Shown here one piece after another: positions 5,736 to 46,039 of a DNA stretch of 61,041 nucleotides. A program made the translations under genes and the position numbers. The notes below the pieces were generated by a model that had not been told where the DNA came from, searched no databases, and saw only the letters and a program-made list of their open reading frames with translations. Within the stretch, counting starts at the first letter, position 1; each line of letters begins with the position of its first letter. Origin of the DNA: Rhodospirillaceae bacterium (lineage in GTDB: Bacteria > Pseudomonadota > Alphaproteobacteria > GCA-2731375); NCBI GenBank assembly GCA_018667855.1, contig JABIRL010000057.1:1-61041 (forward strand), written 5' to 3'.

Positions 5736-6386
5736 ATGTCGCGCGCATTTGAAATTCCGATACCTATTAAGCAAGCAATCGAACACCTACCCGATTGCGA
5801 CCCTGCGTATGCGGCTAGCTGCAGCACCAATTGTACTGGCATTAATGACACTTGGCTGTTCCAAGATTGTGAAATCAAAGGGCCACAAAGTTCGAAACCC
5901 AAAGATTTTTATTCTGAGGAACAATGGATCAATAAATGTATGGATGAGTTGTATGCCGTTTTACGTTTGGAACCCATAGAGCCCGATACGTACTATCGCT
6001 TTACAACGAATAATTCAGAGTACAAAGAAGCGAAATTGGGGAAATTTTGTGTTTCAAGCAACCATCGGACCAGCGCCCCAGAAAAGGGAAAGTCTGTCCT
6101 AAATGGTCCCTATTTTGATTATTTTCTAAACCGCAAATGGTCCTTTCTCCTAAAAGGAAACCTTATTGACGAGAAATGTTCCGATGGCGCTCCGCTTCTC
6201 GAAGTAAATGAAAACCTCGTATTGGCTTCCGAAATAATGACGATTCCGGAAATACTCACAAAGTTTTATGACCGAAATAGTGCGACATTCCGATCAGCCT
6301 CTCAAGATAGCGGTGTACCAGAACTCGACTTATTTATCCTATCTCTTGGCCATTGGGATAATTATCAACCTGGAGTTGAGAATTGA
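5736..6386 (+). CDS. ORFan protein in AT-rich DNA, unknown function
   Basis: 216 residues from ATG 5736, which has GGGGA five bases upstream. The open frame extends to 5625, but that part has no ribosome site. I do not recognise the protein. It is soluble, with no membrane segment or signal peptide, and has a Cys-rich patch early on (D-C-D-P-A-Y-A-A-S-C-S-T-N-C) and several Trp and Tyr residues. Codon use is strongly AT-ending (AAA, GAA, TTT, ATT) unlike its neighbours, and the surrounding 5545-6430 segment is visibly AT-rich. With the gene remnant just upstream, this points to horizontal acquisition. The open frame and good ribosome site support a real gene. Confidence 0.6.
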   Translation: MSRAFEIPIPIKQAIEHLPDCDPAYAASCSTNCTGINDTWLFQDCEIKGPQSSKPKDFYSEEQWINKCMDELYAVLRLEPIEPDTYYRFTTNNSEYKEAKLGKFCVSSNHRTSAPEKGKSVLNGPYFDYFLNRKWSFLLKGNLIDEKCSDGAPLLEVNENLVLASEIMTIPEILTKFYDRNSATFRSASQDSGVPELDLFILSLGHWDNYQPGVEN

Positions 6387-6430
6387 TTTGGATATTACGG
6401 TGACAGTTTACTAATTAGGCCAACTACAAA

Positions 6431-7660
6431 TTAAGATCTCACCAATCGGTGTATCTGGGCCCTGGGAACGAGTTGTCTTGCCGCGGCCCGCCGGATGCTC
6501 TTTTCCGGGCTCTCGAGACACACGGGGCGTAGGGCGAGGAGGAGTTCGCCGGCGGCTGTATCGCTCCAGAACCAATCGGCGACCTCATGGCTGGTGGCGG
6601 GGCCGGGTTTCGCTGTGGCGGCTTCCATATAGAAGGTGCGCATGTCTTCCGAGGCGCCGAGAAAAATCTGGCCGGGGCTGAGGGATGCCACGGGGTTTTC
6701 GGCGGTGCCATGGCCCTCCAGTAAGGCGTGCAGGAAGCGGGCGGAGTCTTCGATGGCCATGCGAGCGGAACCGACGCTGGTGCGGCCGCGGGTTTCATGG
6801 GCCAGGGCATGCCAGGGGGTGAGGCTGGTGATTTCGGCTAGTATATTGGCGAGCAGGGGCGGCTCGTCCGTTGACTCTGCTGGGGGGAACGAAACGGGGC
6901 AGGTCCAGCCGGTCATTTCCGCTGGATCGCCGCCGGGGGCCTCAACGGGGAAATCATCGAGGATGGGCGGAGCTTCTTCGCGCTCCAGCAGGGCCAGGGT
7001 TGCGCGCAGCACTTCTGTTTGAAATTCCGGCTCGTCCGGCGCCCCAAACGGGCGGCCAAGTTCGAACGGCACCCACAGGAACCGGGGCGGGCGCAGGCGC
7101 TCGGTAATCTCGCGCACCAGGGAGATGCCCGCCGTGGGGATGCCTTCGTCCTCCAGGTAATGGGCCAGCCCGCCGACGGCGCGCGTGCAGTTGGGTCAGA
7201 CCGGGACCAGCAGTGCGGCGTTGACGCCATCCTCCTTCAACATGCGGGCAACCTGCCGCGCCGTCGCCTCGTAGGCGGAGGCCAATTGCCCGGCGCCGTT
7301 GAAGGCATAGTGGAACGCGGCGATGGAGCCGATTTCGCCCCGCGCCTGCAACTCCCGCAGTCGATCCAGGGGGAAGACCACGTTGATATCCTGTTGGAAA
7401 CCGGTACGGTCGAAATTCACCGATGATTGCGTCATCACCAGATCGTCGGCAGGCACATCGCCGGGGATCACCCGATAGCTGAGATCGAGCAGATCAAAAT
7501 TATCATCATCGCGGCGGTGCAGACCCGCCGTGGTGACAATGGCGACCCGCCGCTGGTGCAATGGCGGGCCGGTGACGAAGGGCGCCGTCTCGAACGGCGG
7601 ACACCCCTTGTCCAGCAGGTGTTGCGCAGTCTCGGGCGACAGATCGCTTAGTCTAGCCAT
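6431..7660 (-). CDS. PrdB/GrdB-like selenoprotein (proline/glycine reductase selenoprotein B family), TGA read as selenocysteine
   Basis: Two leftward open stretches (7660-7199 and 7195-6431) are in the same frame, separated only by TGA at 7196-7198. Read through, they give 409 residues with continuous homology. The N-part begins M-A-R-L-S-D-L, with V-A-I-V-T-T-A-G-L-H. The centre reads L-L-V-P-V-U155-P-N-C-T-R-A-V-G-G-L-A-H-Y-L-E. The C-part has I-P-T, then V-R-E-I-T-E-R and P-F-E-L-G-R-P-F-G. The U-x-x-C redox motif and following helix are those of the glycine/betaine/sarcosine/D-proline reductase selenoprotein B family, in which Sec is the expected residue. A nonsense mutation is the alternative, but both sides are intact and the TGA sits exactly where a Cys or Sec belongs. 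It follows the LLM gene on the same strand with a 39-bp gap. Substrate unknown; no reductase partner subunits lie in the window. Confidence 0.85.
7164..7198 (-). promoter_or_regulatory. candidate bacterial SECIS hairpin after the Sec codon
   Basis: In the leftward transcript, starting at the U of the UGA (7198 = +1), CGCC (7181-7178) pairs with GGCG (7174-7171) around the three-base loop GUC (7177-7175). The loop G is at +22. Two further short pairings extend the stem across mismatches, down to 7188/7164. A G at the start of a small apical loop about 16-37 nt after UGA is the published shape of bacterial SECIS elements. GC-rich coding sequence makes small hairpins common, so this is only supportive. 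Confidence 0.45.
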
Positions 7661-8981: not shown

Positions 8982-9977
8982 TTATTTTTTCCAGAATGCC
9001 CCATATTGGGCCATCCAATCCAGAAAATCCTTAAAGGCGGCTTCCGGGTCGTTGGGCAGGGTATGGCCGATGTCGGCCGTCAAACGGCCACCGGACAAGG
9101 GTCGGCGGTCGCTATCGCTGTGTAGATTAATGGTTGCCGGCGCGCCGCCTTCCGCCAGACCATAGTTGAATTTGGGATCATGGCGCGCCAGGACGGCACA
9201 CCAGTCGATCACCCCGCACGGTGTCCCGGACGATATGTGGTAAAGATCATGGCCCGGATCACCCGCGTCCATCAGGGCCAACAGGGCCGTGGCGACATCG
9301 CGGGAATAGACCCAATCCTGGCTGTCCCGACGCGGCAGCACCGCCGCCTCGCCCTCCATCGCGGCCAGGGCCGCCTGCATCATCGGGCTCAAGGTATCCC
9401 TGGCCCCGCTGTCGATTTCCCACGGGCCGTATACCGCCGCCAGGCGCACCGAACGAACATCAATGGATAGCAGATCGCCCAACCGGCGGCCGACCGCCTC
9501 CGATGCATGCTTAGTGATGCCATAAAGGCTTTCCGGCTCCGACGGTGTTTCGTCCTCCACCACCGCGCCCGCGCCCTCCATGCGGTGGCGTCCATAGGCC
9601 GAGCCGGAACTGATATTGATGACCCGCCGCACACCGCCCGCCGCCGCCGCGGCCTTCAAGGCGTTGATCAGACCGGAGAGATTTACGGCGAGGACCTGAT
9701 CGGGCGCATCCCGCTCCCGTTCCGGGCCGGAGGTCATGGCGGCACCGTAAAAGACCGCGTCAATGTTCCCCTCGGCGAAGGCCGCCGCGACCGAGCCTGG
9801 GTCACGCACATCGCCCTGACAAACAACGTAGTCGCCCGGCAGCGCGTCGAAAGCTCTGGCCGCTTCGGAATTCAGAGGATTGGCGTCAAACAGCACGGCG
9901 CCATCACCGCGCCGCAATAAAGCCTCGGCGATGTTCAGGCCGACGAAGCCGCAACCGCCCGCGATCAATGCCCGCAT
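8982..9977 (-). CDS. NAD(P)-dependent epimerase/dehydratase (extended SDR)
   Basis: 331 residues, ATG at 9975-9977 with GGGAAGG eight bases upstream. The nucleotide-binding G7-G-C-G-F-V-G13 motif, D-V-R-D-P at about 57-60, N-I-S-S-G-S active-site serine region (121-126) and catalytic Y152-G-I-T-K156 are all in place, so the protein should be a functional extended short-chain dehydrogenase. Family members epimerise or dehydrate nucleotide sugars, but many act on small carbonyl compounds. Being first in an operon with an LLM monooxygenase and a PrdB-like selenoprotein, a catabolic role is more likely than cell-wall sugar synthesis. Upstream lies a compound palindromic repeat at 9993-10097. Confidence 0.88.
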   Translation of the reverse strand: MRALIAGGCGFVGLNIAEALLRRGDGAVLFDANPLNSEAARAFDALPGDYVVCQGDVRDPGSVAAAFAEGNIDAVFYGAAMTSGPERERDAPDQVLAVNLSGLINALKAAAAAGGVRRVINISSGSAYGRHRMEGAGAVVEDETPSEPESLYGITKHASEAVGRRLGDLLSIDVRSVRLAAVYGPWEIDSGARDTLSPMMQAALAAMEGEAAVLPRRDSQDWVYSRDVATALLALMDAGDPGHDLYHISSGTPCGVIDWCAVLARHDPKFNYGLAEGGAPATINLHSDSDRRPLSGGRLTADIGHTLPNDPEAAFKDFLDWMAQYGAFWKK

Positions 9978-9992
9978 GATAGCTACCTTCCC

Positions 9993-10097
9993 TAGATCAA
10001 CATGCGTTCAGATTGAATCAATCTGAACGCATAAAGTTGATCTATCTTAAAGAATTAGAGCATCTTTATGCATCTTCTTAGATGCATGATGCTCTAA
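9993..10097 (+). repeat. compound palindromic repeat, copy A (two hairpins)
   Basis: Hairpin 1 has outer arms TAGATCAAC (9993-10001) and GTTGATCTA (10036-10044) and a perfect 14-bp inner stem (10002-10015 with 10019-10032), loop AAT, with a 3-base bulge AAA on the 3' side. After a 10-base spacer, hairpin 2 has outer arms TTAGAGCATC (10055-10064) and GATGCTCTAA (10088-10097), a 5' bulge TTT, and inner stem ATGCATCT/AGATGCAT around TCTT. The last arm contains the TAG stop of the leftward SDR gene (10094-10096). The element lies between two leftward genes, where it could act in termination or mRNA stabilisation. Copies B and C have the same design. Confidence 0.85.
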
Positions 10098-10867
10098 ACA
10101 ATTGCGTTGCCGCCGTCGACATTCAGCACCTGCCCGGTCAGGAACGCGGCCGCATCGCTTGCCAAAAATACCGCCGTGCCGGCAATTTCATCCGGATTGC
10201 CGATGCGGCGAAGCGGCAGCAACTTTTCAACACGTTCCAAGCGCGTGGGGTTGGTCCACAGGGTCTTGGCGAAATCGGTCTTGATCAGGCCCGGCGCAAT
10301 GGCGTTCACACGCACGCCCTCGGGGCCGAATTCCACCGCCAGATTGCGGGTAATCTGATGCTCCGCCACTTTCGAGATGGAATAACCGCACAGGAACGGC
10401 GACCCCTTCAGACCCGAGTTGGACGAAATAATCGTAATCGATCCCTTGCCTGCCGCGACCATGCCGGGAATGACCATGTGACAAAGCTTGAAGACACTTT
10501 TGACATTGGTATCAAGAATCTTGTCGAAAGCTTCCTCCGGCATATCGGCAGATGGACCATAATAAGGGTTGGAGGCGGCATTGGGCACCAGCGTGGTAAT
10601 CTTGCCCCACTTGTCCAAAGTCTTATCGACCAAATTTTGCAGATCGTCATCCATGCCCACATGGGCCGGTATGGAAATCGCCTCGCCGCCGTTGGCGGCA
10701 TAGTCTCGGTTAATCTCCTCCATCACCGCCTGGCAGGCATCCGCCTTGCGGGACGAGACCACCACCTTGGCCCCGTGCTGACACATACGCGCCGCGATCG
10801 CCTTGCCGATGCCCTTGCTGGAGCCGGTAATGATCGCGACCCGGTCGCTTAGATCAAATAATTCCAT
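10094..10867 (-). CDS. SDR-family NAD(P)-dependent oxidoreductase
   Basis: 257 residues, ATG at 10865-10867 with GAAGGAGAG eight bases upstream. Classical short-chain dehydrogenase features are T14-G-S-S-K-G-I-G21 for cofactor binding, N-A-A-S (97-100, replacing the usual N-N-A-G), a serine at S148/S149, Y162-S-I-S-K166, P-G-L-I-K-T and a C-terminal V-D-G-G. It should oxidise or reduce an alcohol/carbonyl pair in the cytosol; the substrate is unknown. The protein ends N-A-I-V and its TAG stop is provided by repeat copy A, hinting that the repeat landed at or near the original 3' end. It may be cotranscribed with the downstream epimerase operon, although the repeat lies between. Confidence 0.9.
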   Translation of the reverse strand: MELFDLSDRVAIITGSSKGIGKAIAARMCQHGAKVVVSSRKADACQAVMEEINRDYAANGGEAISIPAHVGMDDDLQNLVDKTLDKWGKITTLVPNAASNPYYGPSADMPEEAFDKILDTNVKSVFKLCHMVIPGMVAAGKGSITIISSNSGLKGSPFLCGYSISKVAEHQITRNLAVEFGPEGVRVNAIAPGLIKTDFAKTLWTNPTRLERVEKLLPLRRIGNPDEIAGTAVFLASDAAAFLTGQVLNVDGGNAIV

Positions 10868-10949
10868 AACATCATCTCTCCTTCTCCGCCGTCTTTGTTG
10901 ACAGCTTATACCATGGAGACTGGAGCTTGCGGACAGTGGAGCGAATAAC

Positions 10950-11906
10950 CTAGCCCATGACGGCGCGGATTAAATCCGCCTGGACCCGGCCGGTTTTGGC
11001 GACCGCATCACTGATGGCATCGCCCGCATCGCTTTCCTCGTGATCCAGTTTGGAGGCGACCCTCAAGGCCAGCGCGCTTTGTTCCAGCAGAAACAAACCC
11101 TTGCCGTTCACGGGTTGTCCGAATAATCCAGCCAGCACGCCGGCCAGACTATCGCACAAGGTCGACAGGTCGACAGGATCCGTCGGCGACAATGTCTTTT
11201 TGTAGACCGTGACGGTTTTCCGTAAACCAGCCAATTCGGCGACATAACGGTCGGGCATGGTCGGGTCGGCTTGCTCCTTGTGCAGTTTGTCGGCCCGATA
11301 CCAGATGTTTCTGGAAATATTGCGCAATTTCAGGCGGCGCAATTGCCCCAAGGCATTGTCGATCCGGGAGGCATTCGGCGCCGCATTTCGGTTTCCCGAC
11401 ACCGCCGCCTGCAAGGCGTTGGGAACCACGATGGATGTGGGGTCGGTCTTTTGTACCGCGGAAGAACGGCGGTCCGGGCCGAAATATCTTTCCGTTACAA
11501 CGAATGGCTTACGGCTATGGACCAAAGTCTCTATACGATGTCCCATCTGGGCCGTGGAAAAGGGATGCAGCAACACATCATCTGCACCCGATTCAATGAC
11601 CGACGCGACGGCGCGCATTTTTGCATCCCATGTGGTTAGCAAAATGGGAACGAACGGGTCCAGTGCACAGCGCTGGCTGCGGATATCTTCGATCAATTTC
11701 AGAACGCCGCAATCAGTTGTGTCCAGAGCCAGAACCGCAACATCGGTTCTTTGCGCATGCAGAATATTGCGCAGCTCCTCCATATTCCCGAATTCGAGAA
11801 AGTTCTTGAATCCGAGGACATTTAGGACCGAGCGGGTTTGCTTTCGCACATGCCGTTTTCGATCAAAAAGTAATACGGTGGCGTCAGCGTAATAGGCACC
11901 ATGCAT
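10950..11906 (-). CDS. degenerate receiver-domain protein with Y-F-G-P-D-R-R linker
   Basis: 318 residues if begun at the ATG at 11904-11906; the frame stays open to 12173, but that would overlap the opposite DUF455 gene, and no start has an ideal ribosome site. Residues 10-130 follow a CheY-like pattern: V-L-L-F-D15 in place of the usual D-D or E-D pair, a possible phospho-site D62 in L-A-L-D-T-T, T91/T92, and L-L-H114-P where receivers have K-P. The missing acidic residue and Lys suggest a pseudo-receiver. The Y-F-G-P-D-R-R segment at 141-147 also follows the receiver of the protein at 15314. The C-terminal 170 residues are helical with no recognised domain. It is divergent from the DUF455 gene. 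Confidence 0.7.
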   Translation of the reverse strand: MHGAYYADATVLLFDRKRHVRKQTRSVLNVLGFKNFLEFGNMEELRNILHAQRTDVAVLALDTTDCGVLKLIEDIRSQRCALDPFVPILLTTWDAKMRAVASVIESGADDVLLHPFSTAQMGHRIETLVHSRKPFVVTERYFGPDRRSSAVQKTDPTSIVVPNALQAAVSGNRNAAPNASRIDNALGQLRRLKLRNISRNIWYRADKLHKEQADPTMPDRYVAELAGLRKTVTVYKKTLSPTDPVDLSTLCDSLAGVLAGLFGQPVNGKGLFLLEQSALALRVASKLDHEESDAGDAISDAVAKTGRVQADLIRAVMG

Positions 11907-12020
11907 TTTGGAATAACCCTGTTTACTTCCCTGTGCCCTACATCCCATGCCGGACTTGCCGCCCGTCTTCATGGGTTGCGCTATTCTCATCTCGGATGCA
12001 TTAACGAAGCTTGAACAAAC

Positions 12021-12842
12021 ATGGTTAAGATCGACGCAATGTCCCCCAACAGTCTTAGCGAAGCTGCCTGTGCTATCCTGCAAACCGCCGACCCGGCGGC
12101 CAAGGCAGCCGCCGGCACCGAACTTGCCGCGGCCTGGCGACGCGGCGACATTGCCACGGTCGGCACCGCGCATCCGCCAATCCGCCCGGCCCGTCCCAGC
12201 CGCCCTGAATTGCGCCGCCCCGGTGACATGCCCCGGCGTGGAACCTCCGGGACCCGCGGCCGCATCGCCCTGTTACATGCCGTCGCCCATATCGAACTGA
12301 ATGCCATCGATCTGGCCTGGGATCTGATCGCCCGTTTCGCGCACGACGATCTGCCCCGCGCCTTTTATGATGAATGGGTTAGTGTCGCGGCGGATGAAGG
12401 CCGGCATTTTACACTTTTGGCCGCCCGTCTGGCCGAACTGGGTACCACCTACGGTGACCTGCCGGCCCACGACGGTCTGTGGCAGGCGGCGGTTGATACC
12501 GCCGATGATCTGACCGCCCGTCTGGCCGTGGTACCAATGTTGCTGGAGGCCCGCGGTCTGGACGTGACACCGGCCATGGTCGGGAAACTGCTGCGCGGCG
12601 GTGATCAAAAATCGTCTGAAATATTGCAGTTGATCCTGGACGAAGAAATCAGCCATGTGGCGATCGGCTGTCGTTGGTTTGAATGGTCCTGCCAGCGGTT
12701 GGACCTGGAACCGGTGGACCATTGGCGGGCCTTGATCGCGAAATCCTTCGCAAGCGTTCTGAAACCACCCTTCAACGAAATGGCCCGAAACCGGGCCGGC
12801 ATGGCGGCGAAATACTATCAACCCCTTGATGCCCCGGGGTGA
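12021..12842 (+). CDS. DUF455-family ferritin-like protein
   Basis: 273 residues from ATG 12021 (ATG 12039 is an alternative). The core matches the DUF455/COG2833 ferritin-like family: H-A-V-A-H-I-E-L-N-A-I-D-L-A-W-D at about 90-105, A-D-E-G-R-H near 133 and D-E-E-I-S-H-V near 210. Together these supply E-x-x-H type ligands of a probable di-iron centre. The biochemical role of the family is not established. It is cytosolic. The start lies 115 bp from that of the divergent receiver protein, so the two may share regulatory DNA, and the cell-envelope pair (M23, bactofilin) follows 157 bp downstream. Confidence 0.85.
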   Translation: MVKIDAMSPNSLSEAACAILQTADPAAKAAAGTELAAAWRRGDIATVGTAHPPIRPARPSRPELRRPGDMPRRGTSGTRGRIALLHAVAHIELNAIDLAWDLIARFAHDDLPRAFYDEWVSVAADEGRHFTLLAARLAELGTTYGDLPAHDGLWQAAVDTADDLTARLAVVPMLLEARGLDVTPAMVGKLLRGGDQKSSEILQLILDEEISHVAIGCRWFEWSCQRLDLEPVDHWRALIAKSFASVLKPPFNEMARNRAGMAAKYYQPLDAPG

Positions 12843-12999
12843 TCGCCGAGCCGGCCTCGATCGGGAATTGCGCCGGAAATTACCGCCTGACTAGTTCCCT
12901 GATTATTTCCCCAATTATTTCCGTTGCAATGCGCTTCGGTATCGGATGCAATACAAAAAAGCACGGGGTGGCGCGCAAGCGTTTGAAGAGGGGCACGGC

Positions 13000-14610
13000 A
13001 TGAACGAGGGCATCGCAGCCGTGGTTGCGCGGCTGATGGGGCGTCTATACCCGGAACGGCAAATCATTTTGCGCAGCCGTGGCGAAGTCAGTTTCGTCAC
13101 TCTTGGCCAGACGAGCCAGATCGGGCTTTCGCTGGTCGCCCTGTCGTTATTGGGTTGGCTGGCCTATGCCAGTGTCGGCATTTATCTGCAGCTGAATATC
13201 ATTGCCGACAAGGACGTTAATATCGCCCGAATGGTCGGTGCCCACGACCGCCTAAACGCGGATATGCGCGCGGTGGAAACCAAGTATCGCAAGATCACCG
13301 CGAATTTGGAAAGTAACCAGAAATTCCTCGGCGATGTATTGCGCCAACGGGCCAGCCTGGATCGCGTGCGGACGGAATTGTTGCGCGAATTGGGGCAAAC
13401 GCAAAAGCAACGGGATCTGGCTTTGAACAGAAGCCAGAAATTGCAGGATCGTCTGACCAGCCTGGAAACCAGCTTGCGCCGCACATTGAACGAGTCGAAC
13501 AATCTGCAGAGCGATCTTAGCCAGGTCACGGATCAACTTGCCTCCACTAAATTCGAACGGGAGCAAGAGCAAAAGGAAAGCCAAACCCTGGCATTGAACC
13601 TTGACAGCATGCGTGAGCATGTTCTCGGCCTGAAGAGTGACCGGCAGACCCTGCAATCCGACTTAAGTTCGGTTACCAACCGGTTGGTATCGACGCTGTC
13701 CGAGCGCGACCGGGTACAAATGGAACGCAAGGCCCTTGCGACGAACCTGAACATCATGCGTGACAACCTTTCAGGCTTGCGCAAGGCGCGTCGGGATTTA
13801 CGCCAGAACCTGCAAAGCAGCGAACAGATGGTGGCGCGCCTGACTGATCAGCGCAATCATGCCGTATCCACCAGCAATGCCCTCAACCGGCGTATTGCCA
13901 GCCTGGAAGACCGCCTGGAGCAACTGCATATTTCCCAACGTACGTTGGTCGGCAATATCCATGACCGTACGGACGCCAACATTTCGGAATTGGAATCCGT
14001 CGTTCAAATTACCGGTCTCAATTTGGATAAAATGGTGCAACGGGTAAATCGGACGCAGACCGCCGTCGGCGGCCCTCTATTGGACAGGGGGTTGGATAGG
14101 GGGTTGGACACGGGCGATGAAAGACAGACCGTTGGCGAATTGGGGCTGCTGGAAACCCGGCTGACCCGGTGGAGCGCCCTGAATGCGGTGCTGGAGCGTT
14201 TGCCCATCACCCCGCCGGTCGATTCATTTTCCATCTCGTCGCGCTTCGGCAAACGGCGGGATCCGTTCACCAAGCGCCGGGCCTTTCACGGTGGTGTGGA
14301 CCTGGCTGGCGTTCGCCGCACCAGGGTGCGTGTGACGTCTCCCGGCGTGGTAACATTCGTCGGCTGGAAGGGTCCGTATGGCCGCATGGTGGAGGTTGAT
14401 CATGGCCTTGGCATACGTACCCGGTACGGACATTTACAAAAAATACTGGTCAAACGGGGTCAAAAGGTAGAGTTTCGGCAAAAGATTGGTTTGATGGGCA
14501 GCAGTGGGCGGTCCACTGGTTCCCATGTTCACTACGAAATTCTGTTCGACCGCAAGCCGCTCGATCCGATGAAATTTTTGAAGGCTGGAAAATATGTTTT
14601 CAAAGGCTGA
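13000..14610 (+). CDS. membrane-anchored coiled-coil M23 (LytM) peptidoglycan endopeptidase
   Basis: 536 residues from ATG 13000, with GAGGGG six bases upstream; the open frame reaches 12946 but that start has no ribosome site. One membrane segment at residues 41-63, then a long coiled coil (about 75-350, heptad-like L, N, Q and R repeats), then a short D-R-G-L-D repeat and a C-terminal LytM domain. Zinc ligands H430-G-G-V-D434 and H511 in S-H-V-H-Y-E, plus H478 in R-Y-G-H-L, are intact, so it should cut peptide cross-links in the periplasm. It overlaps the bactofilin gene by 17 bp. Bactofilin/M23 gene pairs are known elsewhere in curvature and stalk/bud morphogenesis, so a local wall-remodelling complex is likely. 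Confidence 0.92.
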   Translation: MNEGIAAVVARLMGRLYPERQIILRSRGEVSFVTLGQTSQIGLSLVALSLLGWLAYASVGIYLQLNIIADKDVNIARMVGAHDRLNADMRAVETKYRKITANLESNQKFLGDVLRQRASLDRVRTELLRELGQTQKQRDLALNRSQKLQDRLTSLETSLRRTLNESNNLQSDLSQVTDQLASTKFEREQEQKESQTLALNLDSMREHVLGLKSDRQTLQSDLSSVTNRLVSTLSERDRVQMERKALATNLNIMRDNLSGLRKARRDLRQNLQSSEQMVARLTDQRNHAVSTSNALNRRIASLEDRLEQLHISQRTLVGNIHDRTDANISELESVVQITGLNLDKMVQRVNRTQTAVGGPLLDRGLDRGLDTGDERQTVGELGLLETRLTRWSALNAVLERLPITPPVDSFSISSRFGKRRDPFTKRRAFHGGVDLAGVRRTRVRVTSPGVVTFVGWKGPYGRMVEVDHGLGIRTRYGHLQKILVKRGQKVEFRQKIGLMGSSGRSTGSHVHYEILFDRKPLDPMKFLKAGKYVFKG

Positions 14611-15037
14611 CAAGACCAAAGCCGCGGCCAAGCCGGCCCGTACGGTGCCGTCGCTGGTCTCCACCGACCTGGAAATCAGCGGAAATCTTCAGACACCAGG
14701 CGAAATACAGCTGGATGGCACGGTGGAAGGCGATATCACCTGCGGAAAGTTAATGGTCGGCGAAAAGGCCTCTATCACCGGCCATATAGAGGCGGATGAA
14801 GTGGTGATACGCGGCAAGATCATGGGCCGGGTCAAGGCGCGCAGCGTGCACCTGGCAAATACCGCGCATGTAACCGGCGACATCTGGCACGACAGTCTGG
14901 CGATCGAGGCAGGCGCCTTCCTGGATGGCCATTGCAAGCGCAATGACGCCCCGCCAACGGCCGTCACGGCAACCCACCGCACGGCCGAGGTCGTCACGGT
15001 CAGAGACAATGCCGGGAAATCCGCCGCGCGGAGTTGA
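14594..15037 (+). CDS. bactofilin (polymer-forming cytoskeletal protein)
   Basis: 147 residues, ATG 14594 inside the end of the M23 gene. After a short flexible, Lys/Ala-rich N-terminus, residues 25-115 form the right-handed beta-helix of bactofilins: repeated I-x-G-x-V/I turns such as E-I-S-G-N-L, L-D-G-T-V-E-G-D-I, I-T-G-H-I-E-A and V-I-R-G-K-I-M-G-R-V. The Ser/Thr-rich tail is disordered. Bactofilins polymerise without nucleotide on the inner membrane face and position wall enzymes. The translational overlap with a membrane-anchored LytM enzyme strongly suggests they act together. Nothing odd in composition. Confidence 0.95.
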   Translation: MFSKADKTKAAAKPARTVPSLVSTDLEISGNLQTPGEIQLDGTVEGDITCGKLMVGEKASITGHIEADEVVIRGKIMGRVKARSVHLANTAHVTGDIWHDSLAIEAGAFLDGHCKRNDAPPTAVTATHRTAEVVTVRDNAGKSAARS

Positions 15038-15050
15038 GCCGAATTAACCA

Positions 15051-15070
15051 ACACGAACAGACACGAACAG
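15051..15070 (+). repeat. 10-bp direct tandem repeat, two units
   Basis: ACACGAACAG occurs twice in a row (15051-15060, 15061-15070), followed by ACA, just after the bactofilin stop. Probably slippage; no function is evident. Confidence 0.6.
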
Positions 15071-15178
15071 ACAATATTGCAGCTACATCCGTAGCTGAAG
15101 TCTTCGCACCTCTTCATAGCAGTTTGATGCCACAGAGCACCGGCACCTGACTCGCGTCGGTCGTCATAATTCTTCGGC

Positions 15179-15210
15179 AAATTTGCAAATTTTCGGAGCT
15201 GGGCTATAAC
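15179..15210 (+). promoter_or_regulatory. promoter and overlapping operator-like palindrome for the receiver/HPt operon
   Basis: A -35-like TTGCAA (15183-15188) is followed after 16 bp by TATAAC (15205-15210), 5 of 6 matches to the -10 consensus. The -35 lies inside a perfect 14-bp palindrome AAATTTGCAAATTT (15179-15192), which would suit a dimeric regulator. Transcription would start about 97 bp upstream of the ATG at 15314. The rest of the 276-bp gap (15038-15313) holds only the short tandem repeat and no convincing gene. Confidence 0.45.
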
Positions 15211-15313
15211 GCTCTATGTTGCCATCAAATCGCTTAGTATTTGTACAATGAATTATTTACGCGATCTTTGTAAATCAGTGGCCGGACATTTAGTCGTAGC
15301 GGTCAGTTGAGCC

Positions 15314-15856
15314 ATGCTGAATACCAGAATGCTTGACCTCACGGCAATTCGGGTATTGCTGGTAGAGGACAATACAAATATCCGCGCCATCGCAAAAATG
15401 ATAATGCGCGGAATTGGCATTCATGAAATTAAGGATGCGCACGATGGCAAAGAAGCCTTGATGCATCTAACGACTTTTCCCGCCGATATCATCATTACCG
15501 ATTGGATGATGGATGGAATGGATGGTCTCGAGCTTGTGCAAAATGTGCGAAGTTCAGAAGATCAGGCGATGTCCATGATCCCAATTATCATGATGACGGG
15601 GCATACGGAGCAAAGCCGTGTGGGACAAGCCCGCAACATGGGCGTCACGGAATTTTTGGCGAAACCAATTTCTCCCATGTCTTTGTATTTGCGCATTGCC
15701 GAAGTTATCCAACGGCCGCGTCAATACGTGCGTACCGAAACCTTTTATGGTCCCGATCGGCACCGCCGGGTTATCGAGAACTATCAAGGCCCATTTCGGC
15801 GGGGGGCGGACAATGTGAACGGCGAAGGCAGCGCAAATACCGGTGAAGTCGAATGA
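15314..15856 (+). CDS. single-domain response regulator (CheY/DivK-like receiver)
   Basis: 180 residues; an ATG at 15329 is an alternative start. The receiver is canonical: V-L-L-V-E18-D19-N, phospho-acceptor D63 in I-I-T-D-W-M-M-D-G-M-D-G, T95 in M-M-T-G-H-T and K117-P-I. It has no DNA-binding domain. After the receiver comes a basic linker with F-Y-G-P-D-R-H-R-R, a tail seen in alphaproteobacterial receiver proteins, and a similar segment follows the degenerate receiver at 10950-11906. Its TGA stop overlaps the ATG of the HPt gene (ATGA), so the two are cotranslated and are natural phosphotransfer partners. Output target unknown. Confidence 0.92.
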   Translation: MLNTRMLDLTAIRVLLVEDNTNIRAIAKMIMRGIGIHEIKDAHDGKEALMHLTTFPADIIITDWMMDGMDGLELVQNVRSSEDQAMSMIPIIMMTGHTEQSRVGQARNMGVTEFLAKPISPMSLYLRIAEVIQRPRQYVRTETFYGPDRHRRVIENYQGPFRRGADNVNGEGSANTGEVE

Positions 15857-16356
15857 CCGACGAGACCGAAGACAAACCCGTCTATGAAGTTGAATTCATT
15901 CCTCCTTCTTACGAATTAAAGACCAAAGCGCCTATGACCGAGCAGAGGCTTAGCCCAGCGTTGAGCAAGATTGAGGACAGCTTGGAAAAACTGAAGTCGG
16001 AGTATCTTGTCTGGTTCAAATCGGATTTCGAACGATTGCAGGGCGCCTTGAAATCGCTGGTCGGGTCTCCCAATTGCAAACGCAAAATTCTGGACATTTA
16101 TCGCATTTCACACGACATGAAAGGGCAGGCCGGCACGTTCGATTATGAACTGGTCACTGATATCCTGCATAACCTTTGCGAATACCTCGAAGATCGCGAT
16201 GCCGTCGATGCCGATGAACTTCATGTCATCGAATTACATGTCAACGCGGTCAAGCTCGTGGTCGATACCGCGCTGACGGGGAGAGGCGGTGAAGTCGGCG
16301 AGAAGTTGTTGCAGGGCCTAGCCGCGATTGTTGATTCTCGCTTTCCATATGCATGA
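15853..16356 (+). CDS. histidine phosphotransfer (HPt) domain protein
   Basis: 167 residues, starting in the ATGA overlap with the receiver gene. The centre reads I-S-H87-D-M-K90-G-Q-A-G-T-F-D-Y-E-L, matching the HPt signature H-x-x-K-G with the phospho-accepting His at 87, followed by a helix with L-C-E-Y-L-E. The first 35 residues are Pro/Glu-rich and probably flexible, and a coiled-coil-like stretch (residues 37-70) precedes the HPt helix. It probably shuttles phosphate to or from the receiver encoded just upstream. The kinase partner is not adjacent; the kinase at 43590 carries no receiver of its own and is only a speculative candidate. Repeat copy B follows 20 bp after the stop. Confidence 0.85.
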   Translation: MTDETEDKPVYEVEFIPPSYELKTKAPMTEQRLSPALSKIEDSLEKLKSEYLVWFKSDFERLQGALKSLVGSPNCKRKILDIYRISHDMKGQAGTFDYELVTDILHNLCEYLEDRDAVDADELHVIELHVNAVKLVVDTALTGRGGEVGEKLLQGLAAIVDSRFPYA

Positions 16357-16376
16357 AATTGGAATTCGCTTTGGTC

Positions 16377-16468
16377 TGGAGCATTTTCGAATTGGAAATG
16401 CTCCAATCTTTAAGAATAGAGCAACTTATCCGCGGTCAATTGAATCCAATTGACCGCGGGTTGCTCTA
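16377..16468 (+). repeat. compound palindromic repeat, copy B (two hairpins)
   Basis: Hairpin 1 has arms TGGAGCATTT (16377-16386) and AAATGCTCCA (16396-16405). After the spacer ATCTTTAAGAA (16406-16416), hairpin 2 has outer arms TAGAGCAAC (16417-16425) and GTTGCTCTA (16460-16468), the 5' bulge TTAT (16426-16429), and a perfect 13-bp inner stem (16430-16442 with 16447-16459) around AATC. It sits between the convergent HPt and acyl-CoA ligase genes. The outer arms and bulge of hairpin 2 are identical to copy C, while the inner stem is unrelated yet fully paired. Confidence 0.85.
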
Positions 16469-16521
16469 GTTCGATTAACTTGGGAAAAACGAAGGATTGG
16501 TTGCCGCTTCCCACATGTCCG

Positions 16522-18015
16522 TCAGCGATTGAAATTAGCTTCCGCGTGGGCGAACAGGGCCCGGCGGTCGATCTTGTTTGTACCGGCCAGGGGCAATTCC
16601 GCCAGCACGGCGACAAAGCGGGGGTGTTGATAAGCCGGACCATTCGCCAGTGCGAACTGTTTGATCTCATCAACCGTGGGCGCGGCGTTCGGCTTGGCCA
16701 CGACGAAGGCCACGGGAATATGTTGTTTGATTTCGTCGGGAATGGGAATGACGGCGGCCTGGGCAATGCCCGGATGCTTCTCCAGCAGACGCTCAACCTC
16801 GGCCGGATAAATATTCTCGCCGCCGCAAACGAACATGTCATCCGCCCGACCGACGAAAAATATAAATCCCGCCTCGTCCCGCCGCATGATGTCGCCGGTG
16901 TTGTACCAGCCGTCCTTGATGCTTTTTTCGGTTTCTTCGGGACGGTTGAGATAGCCCGGCATGACCGCCTTGTTGCGGACCCAAAGTACCCCCTGATTTT
17001 CATCCGGTCCGTCGAGCAGTTTCATTTCCGTATGACCGCCGGGATAACCGAGGGATAGTTTCGGGATTGCCACGCCGTCGGGATGCGGCCCGAAGGCGAC
17101 CGGACTGGATTCGGTCGTGCCCCAGCTGTTGGAAATCATGGCATTGGGGAATATCTCGCCAGCCCGGTCGAACAGCGCCTCGCTGAGGGGGGCCGAGCCC
17201 ATGATCAGCTTTTCCACGCAGGACAGATCCAGCCGCTCAATGGTTTCGGGCTCCCGCACCGCCATGGCGATCATCGTCGGCACGGACGTTAGGACATGAC
17301 AACGATGGGCGGCGGCGGTTTCCAGATACCGGATGGCCGAAAATTGCCGCATCAGAACAACATTGCCGCCGGTCATGCCGCTGAGCGCGCTTAGGATCAG
17401 GCCATTCATATGATAGAGCGGCGCGGCCACCAGGACGCGCTTGTCCGTCATGGGGGGCAGGGAATCCCGCATCAGTTCCGCTGCCCAGACATAGCCGCCA
17501 TGGGTCAAGGGCACGCCCTTGGGCAAACCGGTCGAGCCGGAGGTATAGAGGATCGTCGCGTACTCTTCCTCGGCCATGGGCAGGGGCGTAAAGGGCCCGG
17601 CATCCAGCAAGTTTCGCCATTGCTCCGGCAGATCCATGCGGACCTGCGGCAGATCCCCGGCCAAATGCTGCCAGGCCTCATCGACCAGCACCATCTTCAC
17701 CTCGGCATCGGCCAGGATGTGTTCGACGGTAGCCTGCGGTACTTTGTAGTTGATGGGAACGGCAACCAACCCGGCCCGCATGATGCCGAAATAGGCCAGC
17801 AGATATTCGGCGCTATTGCCGGCAAGAATGCCCACCGACTCGCCGCGTTTCAGGCCCCGTGCCAACAGACCACGGGCCAGGGCATCCGCGTCCGCATGAA
17901 ATTCACCTACCGTGATGTGGCGGACGCTGTCGTCGGCCGCGATTTCCGTCAGCCAGATGGCTTGCGGCGAAAAATCGCGTGGAATAATTTCACCAAGATT
18001 GTGAATACTCGTCAT
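16522..18015 (-). CDS. AMP-binding acyl-CoA synthetase (class I adenylate-forming)
   Basis: 497 residues, normal for a stand-alone ligase activating a carboxylic acid with ATP and CoA. The P-loop Y-T-S-G-S-T-G-L-P-K-G is at residues 157-167, the A5-like N-S-W-G-T-T-E-S follows near 300, the hinge W-Y-N-T-G-D-I and G-R-A-D-D-M-F-V-C-G-G-E-N region near 375-400, and the C-terminal G-T-N-K-I-D-R-R supplies the catalytic Lys. It is cytosolic, with no signal sequence. The start is ATG 18013-18015. It lies downstream of prfB on the same strand, 79 bp away, and ends facing repeat copy B. The substrate (fatty, aryl or crotonobetaine-type acid) cannot be told. Confidence 0.9.
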   Translation of the reverse strand: MTSIHNLGEIIPRDFSPQAIWLTEIAADDSVRHITVGEFHADADALARGLLARGLKRGESVGILAGNSAEYLLAYFGIMRAGLVAVPINYKVPQATVEHILADAEVKMVLVDEAWQHLAGDLPQVRMDLPEQWRNLLDAGPFTPLPMAEEEYATILYTSGSTGLPKGVPLTHGGYVWAAELMRDSLPPMTDKRVLVAAPLYHMNGLILSALSGMTGGNVVLMRQFSAIRYLETAAAHRCHVLTSVPTMIAMAVREPETIERLDLSCVEKLIMGSAPLSEALFDRAGEIFPNAMISNSWGTTESSPVAFGPHPDGVAIPKLSLGYPGGHTEMKLLDGPDENQGVLWVRNKAVMPGYLNRPEETEKSIKDGWYNTGDIMRRDEAGFIFFVGRADDMFVCGGENIYPAEVERLLEKHPGIAQAAVIPIPDEIKQHIPVAFVVAKPNAAPTVDEIKQFALANGPAYQHPRFVAVLAELPLAGTNKIDRRALFAHAEANFNR

Positions 18016-45933: not shown

Positions 45934-46039
45934 TTAGATCAAACAGCCTAAAATCGAATTCGATATTCGGATGATAATTTGATCTAATTCAAGGAGTTAG
46001 AGCAACTTATCTGCGTTCAAATGAACGCAGGTTGCTCTA
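45934..46039 (+). repeat. compound palindromic repeat, copy C (two hairpins)
   Basis: Hairpin 1 has arms TTAGATCAAA (45934-45943) and TTTGATCTAA (45978-45987) around a 34-base interior containing the palindrome ATCGAATTCGAT. Hairpin 2 has outer arms TAGAGCAAC (45998-46006) and GTTGCTCTA (46031-46039), bulge TTAT (46007-46010), and inner stem CTGCGTTCA/TGAACGCAG (46011-46019, 46022-46030) around AA. It lies between the convergent kinase and SDR genes. Hairpin 1's arms resemble copy A and hairpin 2's arms equal copy B. Confidence 0.85.

Follow-up and report, generated by a model that had tools for sequence, protein, structure and literature searches.

Three compound palindromes lie in a 61,041-nucleotide stretch of a Rhodospirillaceae genome (the window, or contig C94; the draft assembly totals 5.33 Mb in 371 contigs and is 94.2% complete), raising the question of what kind of element they are and how they came to occupy these sites. 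The evidence set out here indicates that they are probably copies of a small transposable repeat, non-autonomous and of the kind described in Caulobacter as CIR, which lands at YTAR sites and stop codons and would be moved in trans by a transposase of the IS630 group.

Anatomy of the repeat and its subfamilies

The three copies and their parts are as follows.

9993..10096, + strand: copy 1, a C variant in B-type orientation, TA to TA (sequence, R2 search)
9993..10044, + strand: hairpin 1 of copy 1, outer arm TAGATCAAC, 3' bulge AAA (fold)
10015..10019, + strand: GAATC, a GANTC-type site at the apex of copy 1 hairpin 1 (sequence)
10045..10055, + strand: linker of copy 1, 11 bases (fold, alignment)
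10056..10096, + strand: hairpin 2 of copy 1, outer arm TAGAGCATC, 5' bulge TTT (fold)
10094..10867, - strand: gene with its stop TAG (10094-10096) inside the end of copy 1 and a C-terminus as in nine relatives
16377..16468, - strand: copy 2, subfamily A, canonical orientation on the - strand, far hairpin (16377-16405) replaced or decayed
16406..16416, - strand: linker of copy 2
16417..16468, - strand: intact hairpin of copy 2, equivalent to the canonical hairpin 1, bulge ATAA on the - strand (fold)
45935..46039, + strand: copy 3, subfamily B, TA to TA, flanking bases T and G
45935..45986, + strand: hairpin 1 of copy 3, outer arm TAGATCAAA, 3' bulge ATAA (fold)
45987..45997, + strand: linker of copy 3 (fold, alignment)
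45998..46039, + strand: hairpin 2 of copy 3, outer arm TAGAGCAAC, 5' bulge TTAT (fold)

All three are members of a repeat family of ~105 bp that is dispersed over the genome and falls mostly into two subfamilies, A and B. The hairpin 1 unit consists, in order, of TA, an outer arm of ~9 bp, an inner stem, a loop, the returning inner stem, a 3' bulge (ATAA or AAA), the outer arm and TA; it is followed by 11 or 12 linker bases and a second hairpin with a bulge on its 5' side. An earlier note on this DNA had rightly recognised the two-hairpin copies, which lie at 9993-10096, 16377-16468 and 45935-46039 and have an 11-base linker and a 5' TTT or TTAT bulge in hairpin 2, but it had read copy 2 in the wrong register. 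It had also mentioned a bulge in hairpin 2 only; hairpin 1 has one too, with AAA (copy 1) or ATAA (copy 3) unpaired on the 3' side and opposed to the bulge of hairpin 2. All three copies fold strongly, with energies of -54.9, -53.7 and -38.7 kcal/mol for copies 1, 2 and 3 (z of -10.0, -9.95 and -7.26), and 0 of 200 shuffles folded as well.

Covariance models were built from 23 subfamily A copies (R1) and from 11 B and C copies (R2). Under R2, copy 2 scored 64.4 bits on the - strand against 52.8 on the + strand, so that what is hairpin 2 in copy 2 is the counterpart of hairpin 1 in copies 1 and 3; the hairpin at 16377-16405 is a different one, with no bulge, no TA end and no YTAR flank, and copy 2 is chimeric or decayed. 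The same model revealed that subfamily A matches subfamily B end to end on the opposite strand: A copies scored higher there (84.6 bits against 49.4 at C20:56790), and reversed A copies aligned with B almost without gaps (alignment A4). This strand match implies that the two bulged hairpins form an inverted pair in which the bulges face each other. Among 21 folded loci from across the class, the facing bulges are reverse-complementary in eight, as ATAA/TTAT (genomes G259 and G338), AAA/TTT (G242 and G352) or TGA/TCA (G349, G390, G208 and G109). Hairpin 1 of the G042 locus has no bulge, and six loci (G206, G239, G366, G125, G274 and G118) show the plan only in part. Subfamily A also departs from facing-bulge complementarity, and some copies are without a bulge.

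The apex zone of the canonical hairpin 1 contains GANTC in 71 of 98 copies; copies 1 and 2 of the window have the motif, and the loop of copy 3 is GAATT and has none. Across the class it occurs anywhere in 18 of 23 loci (about one third would be expected by chance, by our arithmetic) and touches the terminal loop in eight of the 23. The GANTC present in many loops may be a site of CcrM methylation.

Individual loci depart from the common form. At 1501-1609 of L129 (G010:C1), ACAA on the opposite arm pairs with the hairpin 2 bulge TTGT and makes the palindrome perfect, which looks like the outcome of palindrome repair. A further double-hairpin type, running from TAGAGCAATTTTC to GATCATGCTCTAG, is present at 713-815 of L212 (G001:C93). 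On a small contig of the window's own genome (L023, G000:C369), two A copies at 6320-6421 (+) and 6830-6934 (-) lie in opposite orientation with ~400 bp between them.

Copy number, spread and complementary change in the stems

The genome was scanned with R1 and R2. In the R2 scan, with 150 of 1031 first-look candidates scored, at least 60 distinct places matched at E ≤ 0.001 with partial copies counted, far beyond the three from which the earlier note had proposed such a scan. A gapped hairpin 2 pattern found 38 places in the genome and its reversed control found none. No Rfam family matched anywhere in the window at the gathering threshold, and the element pattern gave no match in viral contigs. 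The 43 own copies used in the placement tests are the subset of the 60 places that simple patterns caught; the 98-copy flank set comprises these 43, another 43 from nine other genomes of the genus, and 12 from G093, G065 and G092.

At E ≤ 1e-4, R2 matched 13 of 116 genomes: ten of the 11 in the genus (own genome included, G006 being the one without), none of four other family members, and three more distant genomes. The model R3 (E ≤ 0.001) matched 25 of 385 alphaproteobacterial genomes in 19 genera, some by weak or partial matches only; three of the 25 belong to the genus, and the stems are rewritten. In named records, the B pattern was found at 29 loci in metagenome-assembled genomes (MAGs) titled Alphaproteobacteria or Rhodospirillaceae, which, judging by isolate names, appear to be marine. 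The close relatives found are such MAGs, and the Rhizobiales to which the earlier note had looked are not supported as host. In one gene neighbourhood shared by two species, a B-type copy in one (L146, G001) stands against an A copy in the other (L074, G000:C337). The flanks of another own A copy (L031/L069, G000:C51) are split over two contigs of G002 with a B-type copy beside each (L154 and L156), an arrangement that possibly reflects rearrangement at repeats.

The pairing of the stems was followed in an alignment (A3) of 42 copies by 105 columns, 35 of them from nine genomes of the genus and seven from G093, which belongs to another family; the alignment excludes C variants, A copies and any copy with insertions or deletions. 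Paired cells made up 95.4%. Two-sided changes affected 18 of 38 pairs and 153 cells, compared with 39.3 ± 5.5 in shuffles and at most 31 in slid controls, although the cells are not independent events and part of the signal reflects the divergence of G093 from the genus. Ten of the 12 pairs in the hairpin 1 inner stem changed on both sides. In the single-genome alignment A1, only two of 38 pairs were changed in this way, a number matched by 52 of 500 shuffles. The stems are maintained by complementary change, and the excess of such changes that the earlier note had predicted is present. Its picture of conserved architecture with divergent inner stems fits the 18 changed pairs but not subfamily A, whose 23 copies have inner stems that hardly differ (column identity averages 96%).

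The note had further suggested selection on folding. G-T and A-C cells, a weak test, numbered 24 and 18 in B and 6 and 10 in A, so that no RNA strand was clearly favoured; similar counts are expected where DNA of both strands pairs, and selection on an RNA fold is not specifically supported.

Target site, stop-codon landing and a candidate mobiliser

Copy 1 is absent from all nine relatives that align on both flanks (G002-G010), including G006, in which the R2 and R3 searches found no copy anywhere in the genome; in G001, no match at the copy 1 site was found among the matches listed. The empty site in G008 reads CCTAAACAATTGC, and the window reads CCC-TA[element]TA-AACAATTGC, so that a single TA at the empty site corresponds to TA-element-TA in the window. 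Duplication of TA and an element that carries one TA itself are indistinguishable by sequence alone. The base before the element was C or T in 95 of 98 copies and the base after it A or G in 93, with both (Y-TA...TA-R) in 90 of 98; among class-wide loci, one per genome, a Y-TA start was present in 23 of 23 and a TA-R end in 19 of 23. For copy 2, no flank pair was recovered in relatives, and for copy 3 a flank pair was found only in G005, with ~620 bp between the flanks. At the sites of other copies the flanks have diverged in relatives, and some neighbourhoods hold an element in both species. That the repeat is mobile and targets YTAR is well supported.

Placement relative to genes, called around the elements as simple ORFs of at least 100 aa, revealed a further regularity. 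None of the 43 own copies lies inside an ORF, and the 42 flanked on both sides lie between convergent (29) or tandem (13) genes and never between divergent ones, where gene pairs in the window include nine convergent, 31 tandem and ten divergent. The first TAG of the element serves as a gene's stop in 29 of the 43 copies. When 33 ORF ends reaching into elements were examined, 31 stopped at the first TAG, two deeper and none ran through, compared with one third expected at the first TAG from random gene cutting (p = 4e-13). The gene at 10094-10867 retains the C-terminus GGNAIV, its relatives having GGNAIV or GGNAVV, and in nine of nine relatives it ends at the identical codon, TAG in eight and TAA in one. 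Since nearly every full-length tip is TA followed by G, a TAR stop becomes TAG and the protein is unchanged, as observed for copy 1. According to the window gene list, copies 2 and 3 lie outside any stop codon.

The tips of the element, TAGAGC or TAGATC, suggest a candidate mobiliser, since the short TAGAGC also occurs at the ends of one group of IS630 elements. IS630 transposases (PF13358) were sought in 34 genomes and matched in 24. Ends of the TAGAGC type were present at both tips in five of the 24 (G065, G118, G008, G206 and G276) and at one tip in two (G005 and G274). One IS copy in G065 has TAGAGT at one tip, and G008, a member of the genus, has two such ISs, one with TAAAGC at one tip. 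The TAGATC tip was matched by just one IS, in G007 (TAGATC/TAGACC). The IS630 ends of G001, G002 and G006 are TAGTGSTC, and in the remaining genomes with PF13358 other ends, or none, were found. G012, which belongs to the same family and has no elements, gave 27 PF13358 matches, and the copies inspected there end in TACCA. IS630 types ending in TAGTGSTC or TATACC were rejected as mobilisers, as their ends mismatch the element tips. No PF13358 match was obtained in nine element-bearing genomes (the own genome, G093, G136, G352, G208, G109, G010, G180 and G366); draft assemblies often lose ISs.

A tblastn search of plasmids returned 1013 records, 16 of which were chosen by hand and inspected. 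Ten of these ISs have inverted ends (at least 15 of 22 positions matching) and pyrimidine flanks, and all ten end in TAGAGC except for Neorhizobium (TAAAGC) and one Azospirillum tip (TAGAGT). With ISRm10-1 included, 11 of the 16 ISs have at each tip TAGAGC or a form that differs from it by one base; three have it at one tip, and the two from S. medicae and Nostoc showed no such end. What the element and these ISs have in common is a short tip, TAGAGC followed by A or G, whose TAG is partly dictated by the target. In an IS630 tree, the TAGAGC label was clustered (1 of 500 shuffles was as low), with weak deep forks. No obvious element-like hairpins were seen at the ends of the four IS copies that were folded. 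At 967-2028 of L328 (G008:C358), a GAGC-ended IS630 is followed by a lone element-like hairpin, the right TA of the IS doubling as the TA at which the hairpin begins, and at 833-2089 of L212 (G001:C93), a TAGTGSTC-type IS630 with an A run at its likely frameshift abuts an A copy that starts at 2088.

Taken from these ends, the most plausible mobiliser is an IS630 transposase. An enzyme of this group whose own ends are TA-GAGC would move the element in trans into a YTAR site, turning one TA into TA-element-TA; at a stop codon the G of the tip would restore TAG. The hairpins would act at the DNA level, as a cruciform or a single strand.

Some of these observations could also be read in favour of a resident structural element, such as a bidirectional terminator or an mRNA-stabilising hairpin pair kept between converging genes for its RNA fold. 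The location of 29 of 42 copies between converging genes, the strong folds and the compensatory changes agree with such a role, but stop-codon landing alone would yield the convergent bias, none of nine terminator-like sites in window positions 9000-17500 falls in copy 1 or 2, and G-T cells are without clear excess over A-C cells. With copy 1 missing at nine of nine aligned sites, and sharp YTAR and stop-codon borders that indicate insertion, a resident origin appears unlikely.

Movement by a different enzyme is less probable again. REPINs are inverted pairs of bulged hairpins, and the window family shares this form, so that a Y1 tyrosine transposase (RAYT) of the type the earlier note had asked after might be considered; however, PF01797 gave no match in the own genome, the only one searched and a draft 94.2% complete. 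The element also lacks the GTAG tag, the defining feature of REP/RAYT systems, and its YTAR target, symmetric on both sides, suits a DDE enzyme, all of which makes a REPIN-like origin highly improbable. A transposase of the IS5/IS427 type, the class to which we take Brucella IS711 to belong, has in its favour the behaviour of that IS. IS711 duplicates TA at YTAR and has inserted into a Bru-RS1 repeat, as described in PMC3163539. Yet in six genomes only five DUF4096 loci were found, none of them in G000, G001 or G007, and the four with ends found (in G002 and G006) terminate in TAGGGTCTG, TAGGGCCTG or TAAGTGTCC and not in TAGAGC, so that mobilisation by this class is very unlikely. An IS630-group transposase thus remains the preferred candidate.

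Comparison with known repeats

Palindromes of the CIR, Bru-RS and RIME kinds were published from alphaproteobacteria between 1994 and 2003 (further sources: PMC2266754, PMC10800456, PMC2267715, PMC2573895, PMC2873474, PMC2245857, PMC1525189, PMC3733652, PMC11578231 and PMC5748706). In the open-access text searched, we found neither a connection with IS630 nor landing at stop codons reported for repeats of the CIR or RIME kind. The Brucella repeats Bru-RS1 and Bru-RS2, related palindromes of 103 and 106 bp, resemble the window family in size and palindromic form, as far as their description allows. RUP of Streptococcus pneumoniae (107 bp) has a TA target and tips like those of IS630-Spn1 but differs in its 9-bp terminal repeat, and the review that describes it sets the arms and linker of CIR apart from other repeats (PMC2229807).

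For a rhizobial comparison, four plasmid copies were fetched with a GAGCAT-repeat probe. The copy from R. ruizarguesonis (L256) clearly follows the plan of the window family: it ends in YTAR, its linker is 11 bases long, and its bulges, ACAA and TCA, face each other. A second (L257) has a roughly similar plan with the bulge AAAA; the other two (L255 and L258) have no regular second hairpin, and the rhizobial copies differ in sequence from the window family. We take the repeat that the probe recognises to be RIME1.

These likenesses permit a broader and tentative reading, to which we give rather less than even weight: CIR, Bru-RS, the RIME-like copies and the window repeats might form one class-wide superfamily of parasitic DNA elements, each a pair of hairpins mobilised by an IS630 transposase that recognises a GAGC or GATC tip, with tips fitted to stop codons, bulges kept, a GANTC loop in several lineages and stems rewritten complementarily. 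Under the superfamily reading, the G that follows the TA target would re-create TAG whichever way round the element inserts, making insertion nearly neutral. The presence of GANTC at the loop in only eight of 23 class-wide loci makes this superfamily less likely.

CIR, the Caulobacter CcrM-associated intergenic repeats of Chen and Shapiro 2003 (as reported in PMC2229807 and PMC10969869), are the closest known family. The earlier note could not match the architecture to any repeat; it fits CIR as the review describes them (PMC2229807), and we call the window family CIR-like by architecture, on the strength of that description and not of CIR sequence. As described, CIR are ~110 bp long (105 bp here), consist of two inverted-repeat arms and a linker, end in TA and are intergenic in alphaproteobacteria. 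In many CIR copies GANTC lies in or next to the loop of one of the arms; here it is present in the apex zone of 71 of 98 copies and touches a terminal loop in eight of 23 class-wide loci. The window family differs in its lineage, its own stems, its YTAR target with an empty site, its IS630-like tips and its stop-codon landing. For CIR, the review enters the target-site duplication as '?' and the terminal inverted repeat as '-', and describes mobility as needing more information (PMC2229807). The present analysis combines an empty site with a target and a possible mobilising transposase for a repeat of the CIR kind, whose movement that review had left open, and the landing at stop codons suggests a harmless route by which such repeats could spread in gene-dense genomes.
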